Source of the DNA: Elusimicrobia bacterium GWC2_61_19
Lineage (GTDB): Bacteria; Elusimicrobiota; Elusimicrobia; Elusimicrobiales; UBA9959
Direction of reading: 5' to 3'
Length of the DNA: 32,245 nucleotides
Assembly (NCBI GenBank): GCA_001799795.1
Contig: MGUD01000005.1
Location: 1 to 32,245 of the forward strand
Below are positions 5,688-32,032 of the stretch, piece after piece. The notes under the pieces were generated by a model that did no database searches, was not told the DNA's origin, and saw only the letters and a list, made by a program, of their open reading frames with translations. Every line of letters begins with the position of its first letter. Positions within the stretch are counted from its first letter, which is position 1. Both the position numbers and the translations under genes were made by a program.

Positions 5688-5727
5688 GGGGCGGGGTGGG
5701 GCTTTGGGCTCAGGGAGGGAAGGGGGG
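5688..5727 (+). other. G-quadruplex-prone G-run tract before a promoter
   Basis: Seven runs of three or more G fall within 40 bases (5688-5691, 5693-5696, 5698-5701, 5706-5708, 5713-5715, 5717-5719, 5722-5727), with loops of one to four bases. The tract ends eight bases before the -10 box of the next gene, in the place of a -35 element. Confidence 0.7.
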
Positions 5728-5734
5728 AAAGCTG

Positions 5735-5740
5735 TATAGT
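5735..5740 (+). promoter_or_regulatory. -10 box for the DUF4105-like gene
   Basis: TATAGT ends six bases before ATG 5747, so transcription should start at the start codon. No -35 box is visible; the G-run tract occupies that place. Confidence 0.5.
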
Positions 5741-5746
5741 ATAGGT

Positions 5747-6535
5747 ATGAGATTTATTCTTCTTGTCCTTTCGGTTCCTTTGTTTGCCGCTAACACTTAC
5801 TCACAGACCAACGCTCTCGCGGACTTGATGGGCGCGCCTGGCGCCGCGGTTCTCGATGTGGCGGTGCCGGGGCCGGTGGCGGTGGAGAGCTATCCGGATT
5901 ATGAGCAGGACCGTAAGCCGGCCGCGCAGGTTTCCAACGCGGGCGGTGTGCGGGTGCTTGCCGGGGTGCGCTTCGAGCGGGACGCCAAGGCCAATATTTA
6001 CAGGTGGGGCGAGCTGAGGATAGAGGACGCGGCGCTTGAAGAGGTTTATTTCGGCTTCAGGTCGGCCAGTGTGGGGCACAATTTTATTATGTTCTCGTTT
6101 AAGGACGGGGCCAAGCTGGTGGTTGAAGTGCTGCCCTGGAAGAAGAGGGGGGAGAAGTTCGACCCTATAGTGGCCGGCACTACCGGCAAGTACGATCTGG
6201 TGTGGAACCTGGTTTCCTTCGACAGCTTTCTGGAGACCGCGGTGGGCAGCCAGGGGCTTTACGTGGATGTTTACCCCATGAAGCTGAGCCGCGAGGAGAA
6301 GCTGCGCATGCTGGACGCGGCCATAGCCGAGGCTACCCGGGACTACCGCGGCGAGAAGTACAACACTTTAACCAACTCCTGCAGCAGCAACGCCCTAAAG
6401 GTGTTCGCCAAGGGCACCGGTCATCACCTGGTGCTGGGCCGCATGCTGCCCTCCGTGGTTATAAAGCACCTCAAAATGCGCGGCTTCCTGGGCGAGGCGC
6501 AACACTACGATTCCTCCAACTGGAACAAGCTGTAG
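5747..6535 (+). CDS. Secreted DUF4105-like protein (permuted papain-like His/Cys pair)
   Basis: The protein has 262 residues with a signal peptide over residues 1-19. Two motifs fit the DUF4105 family, also known as the N-terminal periplasmic domain of Lnb: H111 in GHNFIMFSF and C212 in TNSCSSNAL. The histidine comes before the cysteine, as in circularly permuted papain-like enzymes. Members are periplasmic and one group has been linked to lipoprotein N-acylation, but this protein lacks any membrane domain, so that role is only a possibility. The protein encoded at 30929-32032 is a distant paralogue with the same motifs and spacing. I start at ATG 5747 because the TATAGT box lies directly upstream; an upstream in-frame start at 5696 would put the promoter inside the gene. 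A terminator follows. Confidence 0.7.
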   Translation: MRFILLVLSVPLFAANTYSQTNALADLMGAPGAAVLDVAVPGPVAVESYPDYEQDRKPAAQVSNAGGVRVLAGVRFERDAKANIYRWGELRIEDAALEEVYFGFRSASVGHNFIMFSFKDGAKLVVEVLPWKKRGEKFDPIVAGTTGKYDLVWNLVSFDSFLETAVGSQGLYVDVYPMKLSREEKLRMLDAAIAEATRDYRGEKYNTLTNSCSSNALKVFAKGTGHHLVLGRMLPSVVIKHLKMRGFLGEAQHYDSSNWNKL

Positions 6536-11948: not shown

Positions 11949-13394
11949 CTAACCCTTTATCACTATCAGCGGCCTGAACCTGGCCACGCGGCGGGCTATA
12001 CCGGCTTCCGTTACTACGCGCACCACGGCGTCCACGTCCTTATAAGCTTCCGGCATTTCTTCGGCCAGGGTTTCGCGCCCGCTGGAGCGCACCCACACGC
12101 CTTTGGCGGCCAGTTCGCCGGCTATGTCGCGGCCTCTGGCGCGCCGGATGGCCTCGTGGCGGCTCATCAGGCGCCCGGCCCCGTGGCAGGACGAGCCGAA
12201 AGTCTGCCGCATCGCCTGCGCGGTGCCGGCCAGCAGGTAGGAGCAGCGTCCCATATCGCCGGGGATTATCACCGGCTGGCCCACGGCGGCGTACGCCGGC
12301 GGCAGTTCCGGGTGGCCCGGGCCGAAAGCGCGCGTGGCGCCTTTGCGGTGCACTATCACCTTGACCTTTTTGCCCCCCAGCTCGTGCTCTTCCAGCTTGG
12401 CGATGTTATGGGCCACGTCGTAAACCAGGTTCATGGCCAGGGCGCGCTCGCCCATGCCGAGGACTTTGCAAAATGTGTCCCTGGTCAGGCCGGTCAGCGC
12501 CTGGCGGTTGGCCCAGGCGTAATTGGCCGCGGCCTGCATAGCCCCGAAGTAGTCCTGCCCCTCCGTGCTGCGGAACGGCGCCGCGGCCAGCTGCGGGTCC
12601 GCCAGGGCTATGCCGTAGCGGCGGGCGGCGCTGCGCATCACTTCTATGAAATCAGTGCAGACCTGGTGGCCGAACCCGCGCGAGCCGGTATGGAGCATCA
12701 CCGTGATCTGGCCTTTGAACAGCCCGAAGGCCCGCGCCGCGGCCTCGTCGTAAATGTCAGTGACCTCCTGCACTTCCAGAAAATGGTTGCCCGACCCCAG
12801 CGTGCCCAGCTGGCCGCGCCCCCGCTCGAGGGCCCTGGCGCTTACCGCGTGGGGGTTGGCGCCGCTCATGGCCCCGCCTGACTCCGCGTAAATAATGTCC
12901 TCCGGCCGCCCAAGGCCGTTCTCCACGGCCCAGGCCGCGCCTTTTATCAAAGGCGCTTCCTGCTCGCGCTTGCCCACCCTTATGCCCCCGCCGGCGCCCA
13001 GGCCGGCCGGGATGTCCGAACGCAGCGCATTCGCCAGCGGCTCTAAATTTTCTCCGAGGCCGGCCAGGTCCAGCCCTGTGGCCAGCAGGCGCACGCCGCA
13101 ATTTATATCGTAGCCGACCCCGCCCGGCGAGATGACGCCGCTCTGCGCGTCGAAGGCCGCCACGCCGCCGATGGGGAAGCCGTAGCCGGTATGGATGTCG
13201 GGCATGGCCAGGACATTGCCGGCGAGCCCCGGCAGGGTGGCGGCGTTGGCGGCCTGGTCCAGCGCGCCCGCTTCCAGGAACCCTTCCAGGGCGGCGTCGG
13301 CGTAAATTATAGCGGAGCGGTTCATCCCCTGCTTGTAGGAGGGGAGTATTTCCAAACGGCAGGGGTCCAGGCGGATGATATTAGGGACGTTCAT
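11949..13394 (-). CDS. rtcB: RNA-splicing ligase RtcB
   Basis: The protein has about 481 residues, full length for the family. RtcB joins a 2',3'-cyclic phosphate or 3'-phosphate RNA end to a 5'-OH end, using GTP and manganese. All signature stretches are present: GGVGYDINCGVR with the metal cysteine, GTLGSGNHFLE, HTGSRGFGHQ, YDVAHN, HRKGATRAFGPG, and SSCHGAGR, whose histidine (H404 from this start) receives GMP. No archease or RtcA gene lies nearby, so it probably repairs tRNA or rRNA on its own. The start is uncertain: ATG 13394 gives the usual short N-terminus and GTG 13409 adds five residues, and neither has a Shine-Dalgarno site. It follows the ankyrin gene by about 50 bases on the same strand. 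Confidence 0.93.
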   Translation of the reverse strand: MNVPNIIRLDPCRLEILPSYKQGMNRSAIIYADAALEGFLEAGALDQAANAATLPGLAGNVLAMPDIHTGYGFPIGGVAAFDAQSGVISPGGVGYDINCGVRLLATGLDLAGLGENLEPLANALRSDIPAGLGAGGGIRVGKREQEAPLIKGAAWAVENGLGRPEDIIYAESGGAMSGANPHAVSARALERGRGQLGTLGSGNHFLEVQEVTDIYDEAAARAFGLFKGQITVMLHTGSRGFGHQVCTDFIEVMRSAARRYGIALADPQLAAAPFRSTEGQDYFGAMQAAANYAWANRQALTGLTRDTFCKVLGMGERALAMNLVYDVAHNIAKLEEHELGGKKVKVIVHRKGATRAFGPGHPELPPAYAAVGQPVIIPGDMGRCSYLLAGTAQAMRQTFGSSCHGAGRLMSRHEAIRRARGRDIAGELAAKGVWVRSSGRETLAEEMPEAYKDVDAVVRVVTEAGIARRVARFRPLIVIKG

Positions 13395-13445
13395 GCGGAT
13401 ACGTGTCACAGGGAAGGAAACTGTCAGGTGCGGGGTACGGGTGAT

Positions 13446-19567: not shown

Positions 19568-22500
19568 ATGAAGCGCATTGCCATTTTTTCAGCTCTATTC
19601 TGCCTGCTGGCGGCCTCGGCGTCGGCGTACGAGAAGATAGAATTTAAACTTCAGCTGCTGAGCCCCGCTTTTCTAAAGCCGGCCGCGGTGGCGGTTAACG
19701 ACGGGCTGGTCTTTGTGGCCGACTCCAAGGCCAACGCCGTCTTCGTCTTCGACGCGGCGGGCAAGCAGCTGAAAAAGATAGAGGGCGGCCTTAAGGGCCC
19801 CGAGGCGCTGACTTTTGGCGCCGGCCGGCTTTACGTGGCCGATACGGGCAATTCCCGCGTGGCCGTGTTCGACACCGACGGCAAGCTGCTCTGGGCTTTC
19901 TCCGGCGAGGGATCGGCCCCCGGCCAGCTGGACGCCCCCAAAGGCATAGCTTACGGCCCCGACAACCGGCTTTACGTATCCAATACCGGCAATTCCCGCG
20001 TGGACGTTTTTAATTCCGACGGTATTTACCTCTACGGCTTCGCGGCGGCCAAGGCCGACGGCATCACCAAGCTCAATCCCGCCAAGATCTCGCTGAACCG
20101 CGCCGGGGAGATCTTTGTTTCCGACCCCGACAAGGCCCTGCTGCAGAAATACGACCGCGGCGGCCGCCTGCTCAGGGAATACGCGGTCGCCAATAACGGC
20201 GCCGTAGCCGACAAGCGCGGCCTGCTTTACATGATAAATTCCAGGGAAGGCAAGGTCAGGGAGGCTTCCGACACCGGCGAGACCATCGGCACTTTCGGCA
20301 CCAAGGGCAAGGGCAAGATGGAGTTCAAGGGCCTGCGCGACATCGCCATCGACGAGGCGGGCAACCTCTACCTCTGCGACGACGAGAACAAGAAAGTGGT
20401 GGCGATAAACCTGGAAAGCGCCGAGACCGGCCCGGAGCTGCCGCTGGCCGTGCTGCTGGACCGGTTCACCGTGAAAGGCCCGGCCGCCAAATACCCCTTC
20501 AAGGCCGACGTTTTCTCCGTTACCCCCGACAATAAGATAGTGGCCTACATGCCGGAGGCCAGGGAGATCGTGCTGCTGGACGGCGGCACCAAGAAGACCC
20601 TGGTGCGCGAGGGTAAACTGCAGGGGCAGGTGCGCGCGCCGCGCGGCATCTTTATCGACCCCAAGGGCCTCATCTATGTGGCCGATACCGGCAACGACAG
20701 GGTGCAGATCTTCAACCCGGACGGCACTTTCTCCAACATGTTCGGCGAGAGCGGCTCCGGCGACGGCCAGTTCAAGGGGCCGGCCTCGGTGGCGGTCAAC
20801 GCCAAGGGCAACATTTACGTGGCCGACGCCAAGAACCGCAAAATAAAGGCCTTCAGCCCGGACGGGATCTTCCTGTTCGCCGTGGGACCCGAGGTGGGCA
20901 ACCTCATCCTGGCCAACCCGGTGGCGGTGCGCTGCGACGAGAACAAGAACGTCTACGTGCTGGACGCCGCCCTGAAGAAAGTGATCGTGCTCGACGCCAT
21001 GGGCAAGTTCCTGCGCATCTGGGACGATTCCGGCAGCCTGCAGGACCCGGCCTCGCTGACCTACGACGGCAAGGGTTTCTTCTATATCCTCGACCGCGCC
21101 GCTTTCAACGTGAAGATCTTCGACGACGCCGGCAAGTTCACGGCCAGTTTCTTCGCCAAGGGCCGCGGCGAGCGCGAACTGTGGGCGCCGCAATACATGG
21201 CTTTCCGCAACGACAAGATCTATATCTCCGACGCCGAGAACGCCCGCATACTGGCTTTCGACATCAGCTACCTGCCCGAGGAGCCCTTCGACCTGAAGGC
21301 CGAGGCCGGCGAGAAAAGTGTGACGCTGGCCTGGAAGGCCAGGAGCAACGCCTGGACCAACGGCTCCAGGGTTTACCGCCGCCAGGGGGCGCACGGCGAG
21401 CTTAAGGAGGCCGGTTCGGCCAAGGCGAAAGCTTTCGAGGACGCAGGTCTGGCGCCCAACGCCACCTACTATTATTACGTGGCCGGCCTGTCCGTGACCG
21501 GCGTGCAGGGCGGGCTTTCCGCCCCCGCGGCGGTCTACTTCAAAGGCCCCGAAGTGACGGCCGAGGCGCCCGCCGCCGCGGTGGAGAACAAGAACGTCGC
21601 CCCGATGGAGATCCTGCCGGTGGAGCTCAACTACATCTTCTCCGCCAATTACAAGTATTACCAGAAGAACCCGGTGGGCCGCATAGCCGTGGTGAACAAC
21701 ACCGACAGTGACTTCACCAACGTCAAACTATCCTTCTACTTCAAGGACTTCATGGACTTCCCTTCGGACACCGTGGTGCCGCTGGTGAAGGCGAAGTCCC
21801 AGGCGGAGGTGGACCTGTCCGCCACGCTCAATAACCGCATCCTCAGCATCACCGAGGACACGCCTATCCAGTGCCAGCTGACGCTGACTTATTACGTGGA
21901 CGGGGCGGAAAAGACCTTCACGCTGAACAAGCCGGTGAAGGTGCTCTCCAAGAACGCCATCGTCTGGGACAAGCCTGCCCGCCTGGCCAACTTCATCACT
22001 CCCAAGGACACGCCGGTGTTCGGCTTCAGCCGCTATGCCTTGAACGAGAAGGCCAAATTCGAGGACGAGACCTCCTTCCTCAACGAGAACGCGCTGACGG
22101 CGCTGATGGTGTGGGAAGCGCTGGGCGAGCAGGGCCTGAGCTACCTGGCCGACCCGGTCAGCCCGTACTCCGTGCTGAAATCCTCCAAAGAAGTGGTGCT
22201 GGACACCGTGCAGTTCCCGCGCAGCACCCTCAAACTGAGGAGCGGCGACTGCGACGACCTGACCGCCCTCTTCGCCTCCATCTTCGAGGCCTCCGGCGTG
22301 CGCACGGCGCTGCTGGACTACCCGGCGCATATAGCGCTGATGTTCGACACCGGCTCCTCCGACGCCCGCGAAGTGGGCATCCCGGAAGAGTTCCTGATAA
22401 AGTACAACAACACCTGGTGGGTGGGGCTTGAGACCACCATGGTGGGCAAGGACTTCTACGACGCCGTAAAGCACGAGGCCGACCTCTACCGCCGCTCCAA

Positions 22501-23038
22501 GGACGAGGTGCGCGTGATAGAAGTGCGCAACGCCTGGGTGGAATTCGAACCGGTGACGCTGCCGGAGACCGAGGCCGAGAGCTACCCGGACAAGGCCAAG
22601 TTCACGGCCCGCGTGAAAGAGTCCGCCGCCGGGCTGCTGAAGGCCCGCTACGACTACTTCAAGAATTACTATGGGGAGATACTCCGGGAAACTCCCGGCG
22701 ACGCGGACGCCAACCTGAACCTGGGCATACTGACCGCCAGGAACGGGGAGGGCGCCGAGGCCGTGAAGTATTTCAACGAAGTGCTGGCCAAGGAGCCGTT
22801 CAACGCCGCCGCGCTCAACAACCTGGGGAACGTCTCCTTCGGGGAGAAAAAATACGACGAGGCGAAGAAATATTATTTCGACGCCGCCAAGGCGGACCCC
22901 TACGACGCGGAGATCTGGCTGAACCTGGCCCGCGTGTCGGAAAAGCTCGGCAAGAAAGAGGACGTGAAAGCTTTCGCCGAGCGCGCCGCCAAAATAGATC
23001 CCTCCGTAAAAAGCACGGGGGACAAACTTCTTAAATAA
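19568..23038 (+). CDS. Large secreted NHL / FN3 / transglutaminase-like / TPR protein
   Basis: The protein has 1156 residues. In order: a signal peptide (1-20); NHL beta-propeller repeats in two blocks (about 30-290 and 320-565), with recurring phrases VADTGNSRVAVF, VSNTGNSRVDVF and VADTGNDRVQIF; an FN3-like domain (about 571-663); a second beta-sandwich-like region (about 690-800); a transglutaminase-like region (about 810-1000) with C895 in GDCDD and H921 in YPAHIAL; and three TPRs (about 1045-1150). The third residue of a Cys-His-Asp triad is unclear, with WWVGLETT offering a glutamate. Propeller, FN3 and TPR parts bind proteins or glycans, so the cysteine domain could act on a bound envelope partner. 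GGAGG lies seven bases before ATG 19568. The next gene starts 18 bases after its stop. Confidence 0.85.
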   Translation: MKRIAIFSALFCLLAASASAYEKIEFKLQLLSPAFLKPAAVAVNDGLVFVADSKANAVFVFDAAGKQLKKIEGGLKGPEALTFGAGRLYVADTGNSRVAVFDTDGKLLWAFSGEGSAPGQLDAPKGIAYGPDNRLYVSNTGNSRVDVFNSDGIYLYGFAAAKADGITKLNPAKISLNRAGEIFVSDPDKALLQKYDRGGRLLREYAVANNGAVADKRGLLYMINSREGKVREASDTGETIGTFGTKGKGKMEFKGLRDIAIDEAGNLYLCDDENKKVVAINLESAETGPELPLAVLLDRFTVKGPAAKYPFKADVFSVTPDNKIVAYMPEAREIVLLDGGTKKTLVREGKLQGQVRAPRGIFIDPKGLIYVADTGNDRVQIFNPDGTFSNMFGESGSGDGQFKGPASVAVNAKGNIYVADAKNRKIKAFSPDGIFLFAVGPEVGNLILANPVAVRCDENKNVYVLDAALKKVIVLDAMGKFLRIWDDSGSLQDPASLTYDGKGFFYILDRAAFNVKIFDDAGKFTASFFAKGRGERELWAPQYMAFRNDKIYISDAENARILAFDISYLPEEPFDLKAEAGEKSVTLAWKARSNAWTNGSRVYRRQGAHGELKEAGSAKAKAFEDAGLAPNATYYYYVAGLSVTGVQGGLSAPAAVYFKGPEVTAEAPAAAVENKNVAPMEILPVELNYIFSANYKYYQKNPVGRIAVVNNTDSDFTNVKLSFYFKDFMDFPSDTVVPLVKAKSQAEVDLSATLNNRILSITEDTPIQCQLTLTYYVDGAEKTFTLNKPVKVLSKNAIVWDKPARLANFITPKDTPVFGFSRYALNEKAKFEDETSFLNENALTALMVWEALGEQGLSYLADPVSPYSVLKSSKEVVLDTVQFPRSTLKLRSGDCDDLTALFASIFEASGVRTALLDYPAHIALMFDTGSSDAREVGIPEEFLIKYNNTWWVGLETTMVGKDFYDAVKHEADLYRRSKDEVRVIEVRNAWVEFEPVTLPETEAESYPDKAKFTARVKESAAGLLKARYDYFKNYYGEILRETPGDADANLNLGILTARNGEGAEAVKYFNEVLAKEPFNAAALNNLGNVSFGEKKYDEAKKYYFDAAKADPYDAEIWLNLARVSEKLGKKEDVKAFAERAAKIDPSVKSTGDKLLK

Positions 23039-23056
23039 AAGGTGAGGGAGGCAGAG

Positions 23057-23584
23057 ATGAAAAAGATACTTTTAACGCTGGCGCTGGTGTTCTCCGTGAA
23101 CGCGGTCTACGCCGCCGATAAGGGCGACTGGAAAGACTGGTATGCCAACATGCTCAGGGGCCTGAAGGCCAAGGTGGAAAAACGGCTGGAGTCCAAGAAC
23201 CGCGTTTCGGCCGTGGCCGCCGTGCGCGGCGCCAAACAGGGCGGCGACGCCCGGGCGCTGTACTGGAAAGGCGGCGTGTCCGACGCGGCCCGCAAGAAGC
23301 TGGACGCCGAGCGCAAGCAGCTTACCGACGCCCTGCAGCTGGTGATGGACGGGAGCCTGCCCGAAGGCAAAGCCGCCATCGGAAAATTCATAAAGGACAA
23401 CCCGGACAGCGTTTACCTACCGGAGGCCAGGGAAGCCCTGGAGCGGCTGCCGGCGGAAGAGGCCAAACCGGCCGCGGAAGCCGCCAAGCCAGCGGAGGCC
23501 CAGCCCAAGGCCGAAGCGGCCCCCGCGCCTGAAAAGCAGACCGAAAAACAGACTGAAAAACCCGCGGAAAAGTCGGCCAACTGA
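23057..23584 (+). CDS. Small secreted protein with a charged Ala/Pro/Glu/Lys-rich tail
   Basis: The protein has 175 residues with a signal peptide over residues 1-19 (cleavage after VYA). It has a helical middle (about 25-135), and from about residue 135 a low-complexity tail of A, P, E and K with two EKQT units. No family is recognised; the segment DGSLPEGKAAIGKFIKDNPDS resembles a TPR-like helical pair. ATG 23057 follows GGGAGG; an in-frame start at 23042 lacks a ribosome site and would spoil the signal peptide. It follows the large NHL protein by 18 bases and ends at a strong terminator, so the two genes form one operon, and the proteins may work together in the envelope. Confidence 0.7.
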   Translation: MKKILLTLALVFSVNAVYAADKGDWKDWYANMLRGLKAKVEKRLESKNRVSAVAAVRGAKQGGDARALYWKGGVSDAARKKLDAERKQLTDALQLVMDGSLPEGKAAIGKFIKDNPDSVYLPEAREALERLPAEEAKPAAEAAKPAEAQPKAEAAPAPEKQTEKQTEKPAEKSAN

Positions 23585-23646: not shown

Positions 23647-24561
23647 TCAATCGTCCGGGGTTTCTTCGGGTGCTGTTTTCGCTTTCCATTCCCGGTCGGT
23701 CGGCTCCGGCGTGATCTGGGCGGGCGCGGGGGCGGCGGATTCCTTGGTGGGGACAGCCCATGTCTTGTCCGGAGGTTCCGGCGTTATTTTGCCTTCTTCA
23801 GCCTGCCCGTCGGCGGGCTGGCCCGGCAGCCAGGTCCTGTCGGGCGGCATGGGCGGGCCGGAAAGAACGGCGGCTTTCTCTTTGGGCTCAGGCCCCGGCG
23901 GGAGTTCCGCGGGGGCGCCGCCGGCCGCTTTCAGCCGCGCGTAAACGTCCGTGGCCGAACGCCAGAGCATCTGTTTGAGCAGGCCGGTTTCGCGCGCGCC
24001 CGGTGCGAAAAAGGGGTAAAGCGGGGCCAGCAGCAGATGGAAGGTGGTCTTATTGCGGCCTTCGGTCTCTACCCGCACCGGGCCGGCGGCGGCGGCGAAG
24101 TCCGCCGTGAGGAAATAGTTGACCCGCAGGGAGGCGGGGATGAGGAAAATGAACCCGGTATCCACCAGGAAGGAGTGGAACAGGTCCCCGTAGGTCCACT
24201 TGCCGAAGGTGGTCAGCTGCAGGCGCAGGGTGCCGTGGCCCTTCTCCCTGTTATAAAGCCCGGCCTCTTTGAAAATGGTCCTCGCCCGGGCGGCCAGTTC
24301 GGCGGTGTCCTCCGGCGGCATCGGCGCCGGCTTGGCGACCTTCGGCTTGGAGATGGAGCCCTCGCCGATGGAGTCGGTGGGGGCGCGGTACGGGAAGCTC
24401 TGCCAGGAGACCTGGATATCGGAGAAGGGGATAACCTGCTTGTCGGAGAACATGGCCTCGGCGGCCTCGCGGTCCACTCTTATGTCGCCCGAGTTGAAAG
24501 AGGCGCAGCCGCCCAGCAGGGACAGCGCGGCAAGGAGAAGGAGCAGTTCGTGTTTTTTCAT
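23647..24561 (-). CDS. Lipoprotein with a repeated proline-rich C-terminal tail
   Basis: The protein has 304 residues. The signal ends in a good lipobox (LLGGC, cysteine at residue 19). Residues 85-215 form the main domain, with a hydrophobic segment (FIFLIPASLRVNYFL). From about 220 the chain is rich in P, E and K, and repeats one unit three times: MPPDRTWLPG, TPEPPDKTWAVP and TPEPTDREWKAK. No named family is recognised; the main domain recalls lipoproteins that build surface or secretion structures, but this is weak. There is no Shine-Dalgarno site before ATG 24561. It stands alone between a terminator and the divergent acyl-transfer operon. Confidence 0.7.
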   Translation of the reverse strand: MKKHELLLLLAALSLLGGCASFNSGDIRVDREAAEAMFSDKQVIPFSDIQVSWQSFPYRAPTDSIGEGSISKPKVAKPAPMPPEDTAELAARARTIFKEAGLYNREKGHGTLRLQLTTFGKWTYGDLFHSFLVDTGFIFLIPASLRVNYFLTADFAAAAGPVRVETEGRNKTTFHLLLAPLYPFFAPGARETGLLKQMLWRSATDVYARLKAAGGAPAELPPGPEPKEKAAVLSGPPMPPDRTWLPGQPADGQAEEGKITPEPPDKTWAVPTKESAAPAPAQITPEPTDREWKAKTAPEETPDD

Positions 24562-24648
24562 TTATTTGATATCCGGCAATATGAAAAGGCCGTGATTTTT
24601 ACTATATTATATTATAAGACCGGCCTCTTCAAGGGCCACGGGGAGCAT
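24562..24648. promoter_or_regulatory. Divergent gap with AT-rich promoter patch for the acyl operon
   Basis: The stretch 24596-24616 contains TATATT and TATAAG on the plus strand, about 35-45 bases before ATG 24649, with GGGGAG as ribosome site. The minus strand towards the lipoprotein gene shows CATATT but no convincing promoter. Confidence 0.4.
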
Positions 24649-25845
24649 ATGGCGCATAAAAAGATAGAAAAGATCATCAAAGGCGAGGGAAAGCCCGACG
24701 TGGTGATACGCCTCGCCAAGGTGCAGGACATGCGCCGCATACAGATGCTCTACGCGGAGGTCTACGGCGGTTCCTATTCCGTGTCCATAGTCACGGACAA
24801 GGATAAGATGCGCCGCGCCATAGAGGATAACGAGTACTACTGGCTGGTGGCCGAGTGCCAGGGCCGCGTGGTCGGCAGTCTCGTCTACGCGCTGGACCTG
24901 CGCTACAGGAATTCCAAGGCCTTCGGCGCCGTGGTGAGCCAGGAGTTCAGAAAACTCAACCTGGCCTACACCATGATGAAGCTGGTGCTCGACGACATCA
25001 CTCACAACAAGGGCCTCGTCGACCTGGTCTACGCCACCACCCGCACCGCCAATTACGCCCCGCAGAAACTGACCGAGAGCCTCGGCTTCATAAAACTCGG
25101 TATCTTCCCCAATACGCATAAGGTCCAGGACAACGAGACGCACTGCCTGACCGGCTATTTTACAGAGGGCGCCATGCAGCGCCGCCGGGCCCGGCCGCGC
25201 ATTATCCCCGAGGTGGCGCCTTTCTACGAGATCGTGCGCAGGCAGGTGGATCTGGACCCCCCGCAGGTCAAGGACGTAAAAGGGGAGTACAGCGACCACA
25301 AGGTTAAGATCCCGCTGCTGAATTTCGAGGCCATCACGGCGCCCGAGTTCGTGAAGAACCGCTACCGCAAGGTGAAGTCCAACAGCTTCTTCGAGCATAT
25401 CTTCATGCCTTTCCACGAGCCGAACCTGATCCTGATCACGCCGGACCAGGGCACCGAGGTCTACCTGACCTTCAACCAGAAGGACAAGTACAGCGTGGTG
25501 GTGGGCGGCATGACCAACGAAGGTAGTTTCGCGGTGGTGCTGGAGAGCATAGCGCAGAAGGTCAGTCAGATGGACATGGCCTACGTAGAGGTGATCATCG
25601 ACGCCTACTCCCCGGCCATACAGCGCGACGCGCTGGACGCGCGCTTCATCCCCAGCGCCTATTTTCCCTGCGCCAAGCGCATGGGCGGCAAGCGCTATGA
25701 CTGCATAGTTTTCTCCCGGACCTTCGACATCCTGGACTTCCGCAACGTCAAGATCATCTCGCTCTATAAGAATTTCCTGCGCGAGTACCTCAAGCTGTGG
25801 CGCGAAAATTATATAGAGCTGGTCTTCAAGACGGAACCCAAATAA
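24649..25845 (+). CDS. GNAT-family acyltransferase with an additional C-terminal domain
   Basis: The protein has 398 residues. Residues 20-165 form a GNAT domain: VIRLAKVQDMRRI opens it, strands VAECQGRVVGSLVYALD and AFGAVVSQEFRK follow, then the acyl-CoA loop and helix (RKLNLAYTMMKLVL) and the end NYAPQKLTESLGFIKLG. Residues 200-398 are a second domain. Its late part (FIPSAYFPCAKRMGGKRYDCIVFSR) looks like the end of a second, non-canonical GNAT unit. GNAT enzymes transfer an acyl group from CoA or acyl carrier protein to an amine. I start at ATG 24649 with GGGGAG; a much longer reading from 24037 crosses the divergent lipoprotein gene and is not real. The next gene begins three bases after its stop, so the operon is tightly coupled. 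Confidence 0.75.
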   Translation: MAHKKIEKIIKGEGKPDVVIRLAKVQDMRRIQMLYAEVYGGSYSVSIVTDKDKMRRAIEDNEYYWLVAECQGRVVGSLVYALDLRYRNSKAFGAVVSQEFRKLNLAYTMMKLVLDDITHNKGLVDLVYATTRTANYAPQKLTESLGFIKLGIFPNTHKVQDNETHCLTGYFTEGAMQRRRARPRIIPEVAPFYEIVRRQVDLDPPQVKDVKGEYSDHKVKIPLLNFEAITAPEFVKNRYRKVKSNSFFEHIFMPFHEPNLILITPDQGTEVYLTFNQKDKYSVVVGGMTNEGSFAVVLESIAQKVSQMDMAYVEVIIDAYSPAIQRDALDARFIPSAYFPCAKRMGGKRYDCIVFSRTFDILDFRNVKIISLYKNFLREYLKLWRENYIELVFKTEPK

Positions 25846-25848
25846 ACT

Positions 25849-27018
25849 ATGGCCGACCTTTCAGCAGAAGACCGCCTGCCGCCTTTTTATAAGCCGCTGA
25901 AAAGCCGTGCCGCCGTGGACGCGCTGTTCGAAACCCCGGCTTTCGAGTATTCGCCCAAGACCTCCCGGGCCTTCTGCGCCGCCATGCGCGCGGCTTTGGA
26001 CTTTCAGGGTAAACGTGCCCCGGTCCTGAAGGCCCTGTATAAAACCGAAAAGTTCGCCCCGGCTTCGGTGAAGACCGAACGCGATATCGAAAAGATCCCC
26101 TTTATCTTCGTGGCCGCGCTGAAAGAACGCGACCTCACCACCCTGCCGTACTCCAAGATCGTCCTGGAGCTTAAATCCAGCGGCACCTCCGGGCAGCGCA
26201 GCCGCATGCAGCTCGACCGCGGCTCGCTGATGCGCGTGCGGCGCATGGCCTGGCGGGTGTTCGAAGGGCTCGGCCTGACCGACCTTGAGCGCGCGCACGA
26301 CTATATCTGTTTTACCTACGACCCCGAGGTGGCCAAAGACCTGGGTACCGCCTGGACCGACAAGCTGTTAAGCGGCTTCACTAAAAAAGGCGAGATCTTC
26401 TATACCTTCCGCTGGAGCAAGGCGAAGAACGATTTTTACTTCGACATCGACGGCGCCGTTTCGGCGATGAAAAAATTCGAGGCGGCGGGCTCGCTCGTCA
26501 GGCTGGTGGGGTTCCCCGCCTTCGCGCTGAAGCTTACCGAGGAATTCAAGAAGCGTTTCGGCCGCTATCCCCGGCTGAACCCCGGCTCCAGCGTGGTGAC
26601 CGGCGGCGGCTGGAAGACGCTGGCCGACGAGGCCATGGACAAGAAAGTTTACCGCAAGGTCCTGGCCGACAACCTGGGCGTGCCGGCGGAGAACGTGCGC
26701 GACCTGTTCGGCATGGTGGAGCACGGCGTGCCTTACGTGGACTGCCGGCTCGGCAATTTCCACGTGCCCAACTACGGCCGCGTGATAGTGCGCCACCCGG
26801 GGACCCTGGCGCCGCTCGGCTTCAATAAGACGGGCCTGCTGCAGTTCATTACGCCCTATCTGACCAGCTATCCTTCCCTTTCCGTGCTGTCGTCGGATTT
26901 CGGCCTGGTCCGGCCCCGCTGCGCCTGCGGCCTGCCGGGGCCGGTGCTGGAAATAAAAGGCCGCGCCGGCGTGACCAAGCTGAAGGGCTGCGCCATAAGC
27001 GCGGCGACGATGCTATGA
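25849..27018 (+). CDS. LuxE-type acyl-protein synthetase
   Basis: The protein has 389 residues and belongs to the LuxE group of adenylate-forming enzymes, which activate a fatty acid with ATP and hold it for reduction by LuxC. The ATP-binding phrase SSGTSGQRS (S110-S118) is clear, and GFPAFALKLTEEF, SSVVTGGGWKTL and the YPxLSVLSSDFGLV region fit the family. A CAC motif (RPRCACG) near the end resembles the one in the PaaK half of the next gene. There is no separate Shine-Dalgarno site; it starts three bases after the GNAT stop codon and its stop overlaps the next start as ATGA. Confidence 0.85.
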   Translation: MADLSAEDRLPPFYKPLKSRAAVDALFETPAFEYSPKTSRAFCAAMRAALDFQGKRAPVLKALYKTEKFAPASVKTERDIEKIPFIFVAALKERDLTTLPYSKIVLELKSSGTSGQRSRMQLDRGSLMRVRRMAWRVFEGLGLTDLERAHDYICFTYDPEVAKDLGTAWTDKLLSGFTKKGEIFYTFRWSKAKNDFYFDIDGAVSAMKKFEAAGSLVRLVGFPAFALKLTEEFKKRFGRYPRLNPGSSVVTGGGWKTLADEAMDKKVYRKVLADNLGVPAENVRDLFGMVEHGVPYVDCRLGNFHVPNYGRVIVRHPGTLAPLGFNKTGLLQFITPYLTSYPSLSVLSSDFGLVRPRCACGLPGPVLEIKGRAGVTKLKGCAISAATML

Positions 27019-29657
27019 AAATACACAACACCTATTTATTCGGGAAAGTCCTGAACAAGACCGCCTGGACCCCGGCCGAACTGGAAACTGTCGGCCGCCA
27101 GGCGCAGGCCGCGCGGGAACTTATGCGCGGCGCCTCGCGCGAATATATCACCGACACCCTGGCTAAAGCCGGGCGGCTGTTCGAAAAGGGCGGCAAGTAC
27201 CGCGCGGCGGCGCTGGCCCACCTTAAAGAACACATCACTTTCTCCGAGCCGGTGATAGACAAAAGTCTGGACGTGATACCGGAGCTGCTCAACAAGGCGG
27301 CGATGAACAAGCGCCTGACCATGGAGCTGTTCCTGCCCTACGCCCTGGAGGCCCCGGTGGAGCGCCGCGGTTACGACGGGCTGATCCGGGCGCTGCCCAA
27401 GGGCGTGGTGCTGCACGTGGGCGCCGGCAACGTTTTTCTGGGCATCCTGGATTCGCTGGTGATCGGCTTTCTCACCAAGAACGTGAACATCGTGAAGCTT
27501 TCCTCCTCGGGGTCCAGCTTTACCAATATTTTCATGGAAGCCCTCAAAGAAGTGGACGAGAAGGGCATACTTTCAAAGTCCGCTGCGGTGCTCAGCTGGA
27601 AAGGCGGCAGCCAGGGGCTGGAAGAGGCAGCGCTTAAGAACGTCAACGCGGTTTTTGTCTGGGGCGGTTACGAGGCGGTGCAGGCCTACCGCAAAATAGC
27701 CCCCATCGACGTGCGGGTGGAGGGCTTCGGGCCCAAGACCAGCGTGGGCGTGGTGTTCGAGAGCTGCGTGGAGAACGAAGGCATGGACGCCGTGGCGCTG
27801 CGCGCGGCCACCGACGCCTCGCTGTGGGACCAGGCCGCCTGCTCCTCGCTGCATACCCTTTATTTTATAGCGCCGGCCAAAAAACACAAGGCGCTGGCGG
27901 CGGATTTCCTTAAGGCGGCCAAAAAACATTTCGCGCGGCTGGCCAAAGAACTGCCGCCGGGGAAATTGTCGCCCGACGAGCAGGTGGAGATAAACAAAGC
28001 CCGCCAGCTCGCCCGCGTGGACGCCGCGCTGGGCGGCGCCTCTTATGAGAGCTCCGCGCCCAGGACCGACTGGACCGTAATTTACGAGGCTGACCCGGTG
28101 TACCGCGTCTCGCCGCTCAACCGCGTGCTGTACGTAAAGACCGTGGAGACCCTGGAGCAGGTGAAAGAACTGCTGATGCCGCTGCGCGGTTATATCCAGA
28201 CCGTGGGCGTGGGCGGTTCCATAGAGCGCAGGAAGGTGCTGGAGACCCTGGCGCCCGCCGGCATAGCGCGCGTGGTGAAGTTGGGGAAGATGCTGGAGGA
28301 GGCCAACGGCTCGCCGCACGACGGACTTTTCCCCATGATGTCGCTGGTGAACTGGGTGCCCATAGAGGAAAAACCGACCCCGCTGGACCGGCTGAGCGAG
28401 CTGGTGGAGTATGCCCGCGGCCGCAGCCCTTTCTACGGCCGCCATTTCAAGGGCGTGCCGAAGATAGTGAGCTTCGAGGATTTCGCCAAGGTGCCTTTCC
28501 TGGAGAAGCACCACGTGCTGGAGAATACGCCGCCGGACAGCGCCGACCTGCTGACCTCCAAGGTGCAGCGCGGCATTTATTTCGCCAGCGGCGGCTCCAC
28601 CGGCCAGCCCAAGTATGTTTTTTACGACCAGCACGAGTACGACCATACCTGCCGGATGCTCGCCTTCACGCTGGAGGCCGCGGGTTTAAGCGGCAAGGAC
28701 GTCATAGCCAACCTGTTCATCGCGGGCAACCTCTGGTCGAGCTGGCTGTCGGTGGAAAAGGCCATCGCCTACACCAAGGCCATCTCGGTGCCGGTGGGCA
28801 GCAACCTGCCGCTGGAGAACATCGTGGGTTATCTTGAGGATTTCAAGGTGACGGCGGTGATAGGGCTGCCTTCCTTCCTGGTGAAGCTGGCGGAGTACGT
28901 AAAGGCGAACCCGGGCAAACACAAGCTTTGCGTGAGCAAGATATTCTACGGCGGCGAATATGTGGGCGTGGAGATGGTGAAGTTCTTCAAGACCGTATTT
29001 CCGGGCGTGGACGTGCGCTCGGCGGGCTACGCCACGGCGGACGCCGGGGTGGTGGGGTTCCAGTGCCCGGTGTGCGTGAAGGGGCAGCATCATATTTTCG
29101 CCTTCAGCCAGTTCATAGAGTTCGTGGACCAGGATACCATGGCCCCGGTGAAGCCGGGCGATATCGGCGAACTGGTGGTGACGGGCCTGTCCAAGAAGCA
29201 CATGCCTATTATCCGTTACCGGGTGGGGGACCTGGGCCGCTGGCTGATGAAGCCCTGCGCCTGCGGCAGGAAGGAACAGCTGTTCGAGATCCTCGGCCGC
29301 TGCGACGACCGTATCCACGTGGGCGGGGCGCATCTGTTCGTCAACGACATCCAGAACGCGCTGGGCGGTGTGCCGGACCTGAGCTTTAATTTCCAGGTGG
29401 TCATCGACAAGAAAGGCCACAGGGACACGCTGGCCATCCGCGCAGAAGTGAAGGACGCGGCGGCGCTGGCGAGAGGCGGGGAACTGGCCGACCTGCTGTG
29501 GCGCCAGATAGAGGCCCACTGCGAAGACCTGCACGAGAGCGTGCGCATGAAATGGCTGGACAAGCCGCTTATCGACGTGCTCAAGCCCAACGCCATAGAG
29601 CGCATCCAGCGCACCGGCAAGATCCGCAAAGTCATCGACAAAAGAGTGAAAGTCTAG
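27015..29657 (+). CDS. Fusion of a LuxC-type acyl-CoA reductase and a PaaK-type adenylate-forming ligase
   Basis: The protein has 880 residues. Residues 1-450 form a LuxC-type reductase of the aldehyde dehydrogenase superfamily: LPKGVVLHVGAGNVF for the cofactor site, WGGYEAV, and C276 in DQAACSS as the cysteine that carries the acyl thioester. Residues 455-880 form a PaaK/coenzyme F390 synthetase-like ligase: SPFYGRHF at its start, ATP loop SGGSTGQPK (525-533), YRVGDLGRW, CACGR and the hinge GRCDDRIHVGG. LuxC reduces an activated acyl group to an aldehyde with NADPH; PaaK-like enzymes make acyl-AMP or acyl-CoA. I know no standard enzyme with this pairing. The start overlaps the LuxE-type stop (ATGA) and its stop overlaps the convergent gene's stop. 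Confidence 0.88.
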   Translation: MKIHNTYLFGKVLNKTAWTPAELETVGRQAQAARELMRGASREYITDTLAKAGRLFEKGGKYRAAALAHLKEHITFSEPVIDKSLDVIPELLNKAAMNKRLTMELFLPYALEAPVERRGYDGLIRALPKGVVLHVGAGNVFLGILDSLVIGFLTKNVNIVKLSSSGSSFTNIFMEALKEVDEKGILSKSAAVLSWKGGSQGLEEAALKNVNAVFVWGGYEAVQAYRKIAPIDVRVEGFGPKTSVGVVFESCVENEGMDAVALRAATDASLWDQAACSSLHTLYFIAPAKKHKALAADFLKAAKKHFARLAKELPPGKLSPDEQVEINKARQLARVDAALGGASYESSAPRTDWTVIYEADPVYRVSPLNRVLYVKTVETLEQVKELLMPLRGYIQTVGVGGSIERRKVLETLAPAGIARVVKLGKMLEEANGSPHDGLFPMMSLVNWVPIEEKPTPLDRLSELVEYARGRSPFYGRHFKGVPKIVSFEDFAKVPFLEKHHVLENTPPDSADLLTSKVQRGIYFASGGSTGQPKYVFYDQHEYDHTCRMLAFTLEAAGLSGKDVIANLFIAGNLWSSWLSVEKAIAYTKAISVPVGSNLPLENIVGYLEDFKVTAVIGLPSFLVKLAEYVKANPGKHKLCVSKIFYGGEYVGVEMVKFFKTVFPGVDVRSAGYATADAGVVGFQCPVCVKGQHHIFAFSQFIEFVDQDTMAPVKPGDIGELVVTGLSKKHMPIIRYRVGDLGRWLMKPCACGRKEQLFEILGRCDDRIHVGGAHLFVNDIQNALGGVPDLSFNFQVVIDKKGHRDTLAIRAEVKDAAALARGGELADLLWRQIEAHCEDLHESVRMKWLDKPLIDVLKPNAIERIQRTGKIRKVIDKRVKV

Positions 29658-30928: not shown

Positions 30929-32032
30929 TTACGGCAGGCGTGTGTTGAGGGTGGCGGCGTTGATGTCGGTGAATTCGGCGCCCAGGATGCCGCGCTCCTG
31001 CAGGTTGGTGACGACCATCAGGGGCATGGTGGCTTTCACGTTGTAGACCATGTAGGGGATGGTCCAGAGCTTGATCTGCTTGTCAGCCGGCAGCACGCGG
31101 TTGAAGAGGATCAGCAGGTTGTTGGTGCAGTTGTTGCGGATAGTGTGGTAGAACTCGCCTTCGCGGTCCACCGCGGCCAGCGCCATGGACTCCTGCAGCA
31201 GTTTCGCCTTCTGCTCGTGCGTGAAATTTACCGGGTAAGGCACCAGGTGGCCTTTTTCATGATAGATGGTGCGGGCGGCGTATTCTTCCCAGGTGGAAAG
31301 GGACCAGATGATGCCGAAAGAGTTGCGCAGGCCGGTCACGGGGGAGAAACTCTGCCCCTCGCGGGTGCGGCCCTCGATGCTGAGCGCCAGGGCCATCGGC
31401 TCTTTGCCCTGCGCGTCCCGCAGGCCGCCCTTCTCGAAAGTGAACACCAGGAAAGAATGCGCGGCCACGATCTCCGGCTTAAAGGGTTTCTTGATGAAAT
31501 AGACGTTTTTTATGAGTTCCGGCTTGATCGTCATGGTGGTCCAGTCGTAGGAGTCGGCCGGGGGGACTTCGGTCAGCATGGTGCGGACGTTGCCCAGCAC
31601 CAGGTCTCCACCCTTGTTATCTATGATGACGGCCTGGCGGCGGCGCGCCTGGTAGGGCGGGGGCGTTACTTCGCCGGCCTTGGGCGTGTATTCCGCGATC
31701 CTGGTGACTTTCAGCAGCGCCAGGTCGTCGGCTTGTTTGGCTTCGGCCTCTATAACTACGGTCTTGCCGTCGAATTTGCCGGCTTTGGCGGAGGACAGGT
31801 CCAGTTTGAAAAGGCGGCCGTCGGCGGTGTTTATGAACACCCCGGCTTCGTTCCTGGCTATGACGCCCTTTAGCGTGTAGGCCACGCCCCAGCTTTTATC
31901 CGCCGGCAGGTCGAGGCCGGGCATTTCGGCTATGCGGGCGGCGTTGAGGTTTTCCAGCTCCGAGAAGGTCTGCGCGGGGGCGGCTAAAGGAAAGGCGACC
32001 AATAAGGCGAAAGAAAGGGCGTTTAATTTCAT
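30929..32032 (-). CDS. Secreted DUF4105 (Lnb N-terminal type) protein with an OB-like N-terminal domain
   Basis: The protein has 367 residues with a signal peptide over residues 1-20. Residues 45-115 alternate short strands and look like an OB-fold-type domain. Residues 160-360 match DUF4105: H192 in AHSFLVFTFE and C302 in RNNCTNNLLILF, with a conserved spacer ending YPVNFTHEQKAKLL. It is a distant paralogue of the protein encoded at 5747-6535. Related domains belong to a permuted papain-like enzyme group and one branch is linked to lipoprotein acylation. ATG 32032 lies six bases after a TATTAT box and has no ribosome site, so the mRNA is probably leaderless. The flavoprotein gene follows in the same transcript. 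Confidence 0.8.
   Translation of the reverse strand: MKLNALSFALLVAFPLAAPAQTFSELENLNAARIAEMPGLDLPADKSWGVAYTLKGVIARNEAGVFINTADGRLFKLDLSSAKAGKFDGKTVVIEAEAKQADDLALLKVTRIAEYTPKAGEVTPPPYQARRRQAVIIDNKGGDLVLGNVRTMLTEVPPADSYDWTTMTIKPELIKNVYFIKKPFKPEIVAAHSFLVFTFEKGGLRDAQGKEPMALALSIEGRTREGQSFSPVTGLRNSFGIIWSLSTWEEYAARTIYHEKGHLVPYPVNFTHEQKAKLLQESMALAAVDREGEFYHTIRNNCTNNLLILFNRVLPADKQIKLWTIPYMVYNVKATMPLMVVTNLQERGILGAEFTDINAATLNTRLP

Follow-up and report, generated by a model that had tools for sequence, protein, structure and literature searches.

The enzymes that resemble most closely the products of a three-gene operon in the Elusimicrobia bacterium GWC2_61_19 genome are reductases and ligases of carboxylic acids. 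The operon lies on a 32,245-nucleotide stretch of DNA (contig MGUD01000005.1, positions 1 to 32,245; hereafter the window), and its genes, orf1, orf2, and orf3, encode a predicted tandem-GNAT acyltransferase, a LuxE-type acyl-protein synthetase, and a fusion of a LuxC-type acyl reductase with a PaaK-like adenylate-forming ligase. It shares with the LuxC-LuxE fatty acid reductase of Photobacterium phosphoreum (structure 7xc6) the acyl-accepting cysteine at the C-terminus of LuxE, the aldehyde-dehydrogenase-like fold and catalytic cysteine of LuxC, and the adjacency of the two genes. Unlike in luminous systems, LuxC is here fused to a PaaK-like ligase, a tandem-GNAT gene comes first, luciferase was not found (32 genomes), and LuxE carries near-invariant cysteine and histidine residues (C299, H305, C358, and C360). 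The ligase portion resembles PaaK-type phenylacetate-CoA ligases such as BT_0428 and PaaK1 in being a complete adenylate-forming ligase with a P-loop and a C-terminal GK lysine, but differs from them in its fusion to LuxC and its partnership with LuxE and a GNAT.

Carboxylic acid reductases of the Nocardia type (CAR) hold a carrier domain between the adenylation and reductase domains. Pfam finds no carrier domain in orf3, in contrast, and its domain order is reductase, then ligase. A further point of comparison is grixazone biosynthesis, whose reductase GriD is LuxC-like. According to the available text of PMC10179220, GriC makes the acyl-adenylate (acyl-AMP) of 3-amino-4-hydroxybenzoate and GriD mediates the reduction that forms the aldehyde; a like pairing of adenylate-forming enzyme and reductase is predicted here from sequence, although the ligase is fused to the reductase and LuxE and a GNAT are additional. 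The Aeromonas polar flagella glycosylation island also combines non-luminous luxE and luxC with an AMP-dependent synthetase, but in the portion of PMC7874193 that describes it they are surrounded by glycosyltransferases, an acyl carrier protein (ACP), and a 3-oxoacyl-ACP reductase, a set not shared at 36 loci of the operon described here.

Analysis of these genes and their relatives indicates that the operon is real, conserved, and apparently undescribed, with known kinds of enzymes in a new arrangement. No description of it was found in the open-licence papers searched, in agreement with a preliminary description of this DNA that had proposed an undescribed system. The best-supported statement is that it encodes a predicted cysteine-relay carboxylic acid reductase, an acyltransferase, and a further acid-activating function. 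We further propose, at a probability of roughly 45%, that it is a self-contained biosynthetic operon making a small acylated aldehyde or alcohol.

Architecture and domain content of the operon

The genes are tightly packed, with a 3-base gap between orf1 and orf2 and an ATGA overlap between orf2 and orf3, at the coordinates given in the preliminary description (Table 1). The GNAT, LuxE, and LuxC families that it had named are borne out by matches to PF00583, PF04443, and PF05893, to which a second GNAT-like domain and the fusion of LuxC to PaaK can now be added. The reading frame of orf1 is open back to position 24037 in the list of open reading frames (ORFs), and the start shown in Table 1 is preferred because the beginning MAHxxIEK is common to a relative (L045). 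Three promoter-like sites occur between positions 24400 and 29900, compared with a mean of 1.4 (standard deviation 1.1) in shuffled sequence.

Table 1 Features of the operon and its upstream gap in the window.
Feature	Position	Strand	Evidence
orf1, tandem-GNAT acyltransferase, 398 aa	24649..25845 (stop included)	+	PF00583, AlphaFold model, Foldseek, alignments
orf2, LuxE-type acyl-protein synthetase, 389 aa	25849..27018	+	PF04443, alignment with 7xc6 LuxE
orf3, LuxC-PaaK fusion, 880 aa	27015..29657	+	PF05893, PF00501, PF14535, alignments with 7xc6 and 4r1l, model
Promoter-like hexamers in the 87-base gap ahead of orf1	24581..24610	+	consensus match only

Over most of its length orf2 matches the LuxE family in Pfam (E = 1.9e-33), and its profile aligns with the LuxE of 7xc6 (E = 1.1e-38), including the GC motif and with the cysteine in register. 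This acyl-accepting cysteine, C381, lies near the C-terminus and is kept in all 102 distinct LuxE copies, which were drawn from 123 ORFs with near-full profile coverage, window included. The near-invariant C299, H305, C358, and C360 resemble invariant cysteine and histidine residues of the PaaK domain, and our guess is that they perhaps form a metal site.

The orf3 protein comprises a LuxC acyl reductase at approximately residues 1–450, with the catalytic cysteine C276, and a PaaK-like ligase at approximately residues 456–880, with the P-loop lysine K533 and the C-terminal lysine K869. Pfam assigns LuxC to residues 47–447 (E = 1.9e-68), AMP-binding PF00501 to 525–724 (E = 8.9e-11), and PF14535 to 771–877 (E = 1.1e-7). 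Its profile aligns with the LuxC of 7xc6 (E = 8.2e-63) with the cysteine again in register, while the C-terminal half aligns with PaaK ligases including BT_0428 (4r1l). A structure model (predicted local distance difference test, pLDDT, 87.3; predicted TM-score, pTM, 0.71) matches 4rvo_B and 7xc6_A in Foldseek with target-normalized TM-scores (TMt) of 0.82 and 0.77. Among 92 distinct fusions, taken from 105 ORFs with near-full profile coverage and again including the window, C276 is kept in all 92, the GK lysine K869 in all 92, and K533 in 88; the window has both lysines. Regular expressions had hinted at loss of the catalytic cysteines in some relatives, a possibility disproved by alignment; the LuxC cysteine persists in related copies, a point on which the preliminary description had staked its proposal. 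One of these alignments displays 36 chosen rows, with L061 and L122 representing a single place.

These similarities also suit a long-chain fatty acid reductase module, in which the fatty aldehyde or alcohol produced by LuxE and LuxC would go into a membrane lipid, a wax, or a signal, and the GNAT would form an N-acyl amine. Among solved structures the two proteins match the P. phosphoreum fatty acid reductase, and the top NCBIfam model for orf2 is the long-chain-fatty-acid--protein ligase LuxE. The score against that model, however, is 85.4 bits for a cut-off of 550, and orf3 reaches 130.9 bits against a LuxC cut-off of 750, so that by these cut-offs neither protein is a LuxE or LuxC equivalog. 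Nor does the genomic context favor a fatty product. As the preliminary description had noted, luxAB and luxD are absent among the 18 window proteins scanned (LuxD was sought in the window only), and the luciferase family PF00296 is found in none of 32 genomes of the genus, with a control positive in 10 of 14, which leads us to reject a relic of luminescence. The wax-synthase family PF03007 has no match in the 32 genomes either, a result of little weight given that its control was silent, and no lipid-using gene is widely common beside the operon at the 36 loci compared. We regard a dedicated fatty acid module as unlikely on this balance.

In orf1, the GNAT match is confined to residues 54–147 (PF00583, E = 8.5e-7). 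An AlphaFold model guided by a profile of 44 sequences (pLDDT 90.2, pTM 0.90) contains two GNAT-like series of strands and helices, and shows the C-terminal half to be a second predicted GNAT-like unit missed by Pfam; the N-terminal GNAT domain spans approximately residues 18–172 and the C-terminal one approximately 227–360. The closing stretches of the halves are alike by eye (VYATTRT...GFxxLGIFPN and YxExxxDAY...FxPxAYFP). Foldseek recovers single GNAT domains at query-normalized TM-scores (TMq) of 0.32–0.36 among the 50 matches listed, none of which is a full-length structural match. The Pfam match, the model, and Foldseek all place orf1 in the GNAT fold. Alignment A2 of orf1 comprises the window and 43 of 76 usable matches, and alignments A3 and A4 comprise the window with 34 of 71 and 29 of 65 usable matches; matches with stops were excluded.

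The trio is conserved across several phyla

A named genome collection contains 165 relatives of orf1; the best 80 correspond to 79 loci, and 70 of these contain the ordered GNAT-LuxE-LuxC/PaaK triplet. The remainder comprise one rearranged locus (L118), four at contig edges (L063, L104, L114, and L123), and four in which the GNAT lacks adjoining partners (L111, L121, L125, and L137). Most of the 79 loci, like the near relatives of the window, lie in metagenome-assembled genomes with Elusimicrobia or Elusimicrobiota in their titles, followed by Bacteriovoracaceae, Bacteriovorax, Bdellovibrio, Bdellovibrionales, and Oligoflexia, along with one Deltaproteobacteria, one Cloacimonadota, and several titled only “bacterium”. 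Across 294 genomes of the phylum, 60 encode orf1 together with the orf3 fusion, five orf1 only, and one orf3 only, as judged from the orf3 matches listed and leaving out those that cover PaaK alone or LuxC alone. By the same listed matches, 50 of the 71 orf1 matches in the phylum are followed within 6 kb by orf3 on the same strand. Another 12 are divergent copies with orf3 upstream, likewise on their own contig and strand, one is on the strand opposite to orf3, and eight have no orf3 on the contig. This conservation rules out chance adjacency and answers the preliminary description, which would have given way had the genes not been found together in related genomes. In the host genome itself, which is 1.36 Mb and 66% complete with the window on contig 5, orf3 is the sole LuxC-family match.

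Beyond the phylum, the phylum to which locus L138 belongs has a GNAT match at E ≤ 0.001 in 97 of its 290 genomes, although the weakest of these are generic GNATs, and the phylum of L140 has one in 27 of 39. Twenty regions chosen from these two sets include 16 ordered triplets, two rearrangements (L161 and L173), and two GNATs alone (L163 and L172). Gene order is the same across several phyla at 35–40% protein identity, and the three proteins have distance matrices whose correlation over 84 loci is r = 0.973–0.978, a value as high being reached in none of 999 permutations, although shared descent contributes to it.

No fourth family is widely shared among 36 diverse loci: the next largest occurs in only 6 of the 36, all from Bdellovibrionota sets, and a widely conserved fourth partner was rejected on this count. 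GNAT and LuxE overlap by 4 bases in nine Bdellovibrionota loci, and opposite-strand genes stand on both flanks of the trio in three loci (L129, L130, and L136). Taken together, these three observations suggest that the trio forms a complete unit.

An assembly of three unrelated enzymes, held together by drift or shared regulation only, would be compatible with the unrelated insertions found between the genes at some loci and with the ability of the GNAT to stand alone. Such an assembly is highly improbable in view of the gene order retained among distant phyla, the nine 4-base overlaps, the kept catalytic residues, the correlated distances, and the other neighbors, which change.

A predicted second acid-activating activity

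Four of the 92 distinct fusions (L155, L156, L158, and L162) have lost the P-loop lysine of their PaaK portion, as have three fusions from Streptomycetaceae (L175, L178, and L179). PaaK seems to be separate from LuxE, because in all seven of these loci a stand-alone PaaK adjoins the operon; to judge from these sequences, PaaK looks like a needed step in its own right. The preliminary description had proposed an operon that activates, holds, and transfers an acyl group. Family assignments, residues, and conservation agree with all three activities, but PaaK as a separate, needed activity had been overlooked. The proposal is partly supported; a long-chain acid, a product serving as lipid, signal, or store, and a supply of the acyl group to the GNAT by LuxE or LuxC are its more speculative parts.

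Streptomycetaceae and plasmid loci

Among 72,556 plasmid records searched at the protein level, the GNAT was recovered in four, of which two belong to Streptantibioticus cattleyicolor NRRL 8057 and two to Streptomyces. The annotation of Streptomyces sp. NBC_00158 gives, in this order, phenylacetate--CoA ligase, major facilitator superfamily (MFS) transporter, GNAT, acyl-protein synthase, and acyl-CoA reductase, the last being an 853-aa fusion of LuxC and AMP-binding domains. Streptomyces sp. BHT-5-2 and S. cattleyicolor have these five genes in the same order, with 50–75% identity to NBC_00158. When 14 genes of the NBC_00158 locus (L175) were compared, the five operon genes matched both other strains; of the other nine, only YafY (35%) and a 112-residue LuxR-type piece found a match, both in S. 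cattleyicolor (L179).

These loci bear on the nature of the acid. If the acid were aryl or otherwise non-fatty and the system a carboxylic acid reductase of specialized metabolism, the LuxC-PaaK fusion would work like GriC-GriD and the GNAT would acylate an amino group of the product. Besides the precedent for aldehyde formation from 3-amino-4-hydroxybenzoate in the available text of PMC10179220, this is suggested by the C-terminal half of orf3, which best matches PaaK enzymes; the matches include entries titled with phenylacetyl adenylate (PaaK1 and PaaK2), 3-amino,4-hydroxybenzoic acid (ClxA), and salicylic acid (NatL2). The NBC_00158 set, moreover, is preceded by an AraC-type regulator gene and contains the MFS transporter, and a Streptomyces europaeiscabiei plasmid has YcaO and MbnB/TglH/ChrH-family genes in the vicinity of a LuxE-LuxC pair. 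The listed structure matches nevertheless include an aliphatic 2-hydroxyisobutyryl-CoA ligase, the unit contains a separate cysteine-bearing LuxE that GriC-GriD does not need, and no shared aromatic biosynthesis gene was seen near the loci examined, leaving an aryl-type reductase a doubtful account of the family.

The S. europaeiscabiei plasmid locus (L176) encodes LuxE and an unfused LuxC without a GNAT. Genes of the MbnB/TglH/ChrH family and of the MBL fold adjoin the pair, and YcaO and MFS genes lie farther upstream. This neighborhood hints at carboxyl reduction in a pathway for ribosomally synthesized and post-translationally modified peptides (RiPPs), and it cautions against assuming fatty acids. 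A Chloroflexota plasmid (L177) also carries a LuxE-LuxC pair without a GNAT, about 3 kb from an annotated heliorhodopsin gene.

Divergent clusters and neighboring genes

A divergent second cluster was recovered at five loci (L057:3244-13296, L058, L059, L118, and L173), and occurs together with the first kind in four genomes (G213, G226, G229, and G283). Its genes encode PaaK, LuxE, LuxC-PaaK, a divergent GNAT, and an MFS transporter (in L057, L059, and L118). They also encode a protein that begins like a signal peptide and weakly matches a glutaminase (PF18626, below cut-off), as well as a longer protein whose match to GNAT is weak; copies vary, and the full gene set is not in every one. An MFS transporter thus joins the set in the three Streptomycetaceae, in L159, and in divergent clusters.

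Neighbors of the lone GNATs have no common theme, and comprise RtcB, a weak HEAT match, an acetate-kinase-like protein, and uncharacterized proteins. At L163:7501-9878 the lone GNAT begins 14 bases past an RtcB-type RNA ligase gene; the window has an RtcB gene of its own at 11949-13409, 11 kb from the operon. At L172:6920-14892 the lone GNAT lies within a same-strand run of genes mostly annotated without function, along with an acetate-kinase-like gene. Elsewhere in the window, positions 19568-23038 encode a large protein with NHL and TPR repeats, followed by a 180-aa protein at 23042-23584, and several loci of the family have relatives of one or both on the upstream side of the operon. Two proteins with a periplasmic Lnb_N domain (PF13387) are encoded at 5696-6535 (+) and 30929-32032 (−), the second of them two genes from the operon.

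Discussion

For a self-contained pathway to a small acylated aldehyde or alcohol, the conserved residues suggest the following route. LuxE would adenylate a carboxylic acid and take the acyl group onto Cys381, from which it would pass to Cys276 of LuxC and be reduced with NAD(P)H to the aldehyde, as in the LuxC-LuxE fatty acid reductase. The PaaK domain, or the stand-alone PaaK where the fused one is broken, would adenylate a second acid or the same one to give a coenzyme A (CoA) ester or an adenylate. In the last and weakest step, the tandem GNAT would transfer an acyl group to an amine or hydroxyl. By analogy with Lux the acid may be fatty, by analogy with GriC-GriD it may be aryl, or it may be of another kind; that the product is an acylated aldehyde or alcohol is what we infer from the activities combined.

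What the analysis shows directly is the genes and the order in which they stand, together with fold class, catalytic residues, and co-conservation. Several observations weigh against the proposed pathway. The CoA-binding P-loop of GNATs is [R/Q]-x-x-G-x-[G/A], but in the N-terminal domain of orf1 most of the Elusimicrobia sequences shown have R-x-x-[N/D]-x-A at this place, so that CoA use by the GNAT is uncertain. The P-loop glycine is present in L059, L060, and the Bacteriovoracaceae sequences shown (the latter R-x-x-G-x-M), the three Streptomycetaceae copies have the canonical P-loop, and CoA is a likely, not certain, acyl donor. The GNAT stands without adjoining LuxE or LuxC in six loci (L111, L121, L125, L137, L163, and L172). 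The orf3 fusion is encoded elsewhere in the L121 and L125 genomes, whereas those of L111 and L137 contain only weak PaaK-like matches, and the GNAT can therefore exist without the reductase. Unrelated genes split the trio in L045 (NicO and DUF1007) and L049 (DUF362 and a phosphonate-binding protein). Stand-alone PaaK is also present where the fused P-loop is intact, which makes the replacement argument one-way. Finally, the gene caller misses genes in GC-rich loci, and shared neighbors may be undercounted.

The operon has been retained in distant phyla with its catalytic residues intact, and we expect that small conserved operons such as this one, which have no polyketide synthase or non-ribosomal peptide synthetase core, are likely overlooked by genome mining. 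With its compact arrangement as a reductase, the LuxC-PaaK fusion may be useful in biocatalysis. Since a named strain, Streptantibioticus cattleyicolor NRRL 8057, carries the operon, its product can be sought and found now. More tentatively, a minimal and hitherto undescribed pathway of two acid activators, a cysteine-relay reductase, and a two-domain GNAT, spread across several phyla, may convert primary metabolites into acylated aldehydes or amino alcohols of a new class, which would be made by Elusimicrobia, relatives of the predatory Bdellovibrio, and Streptomyces.

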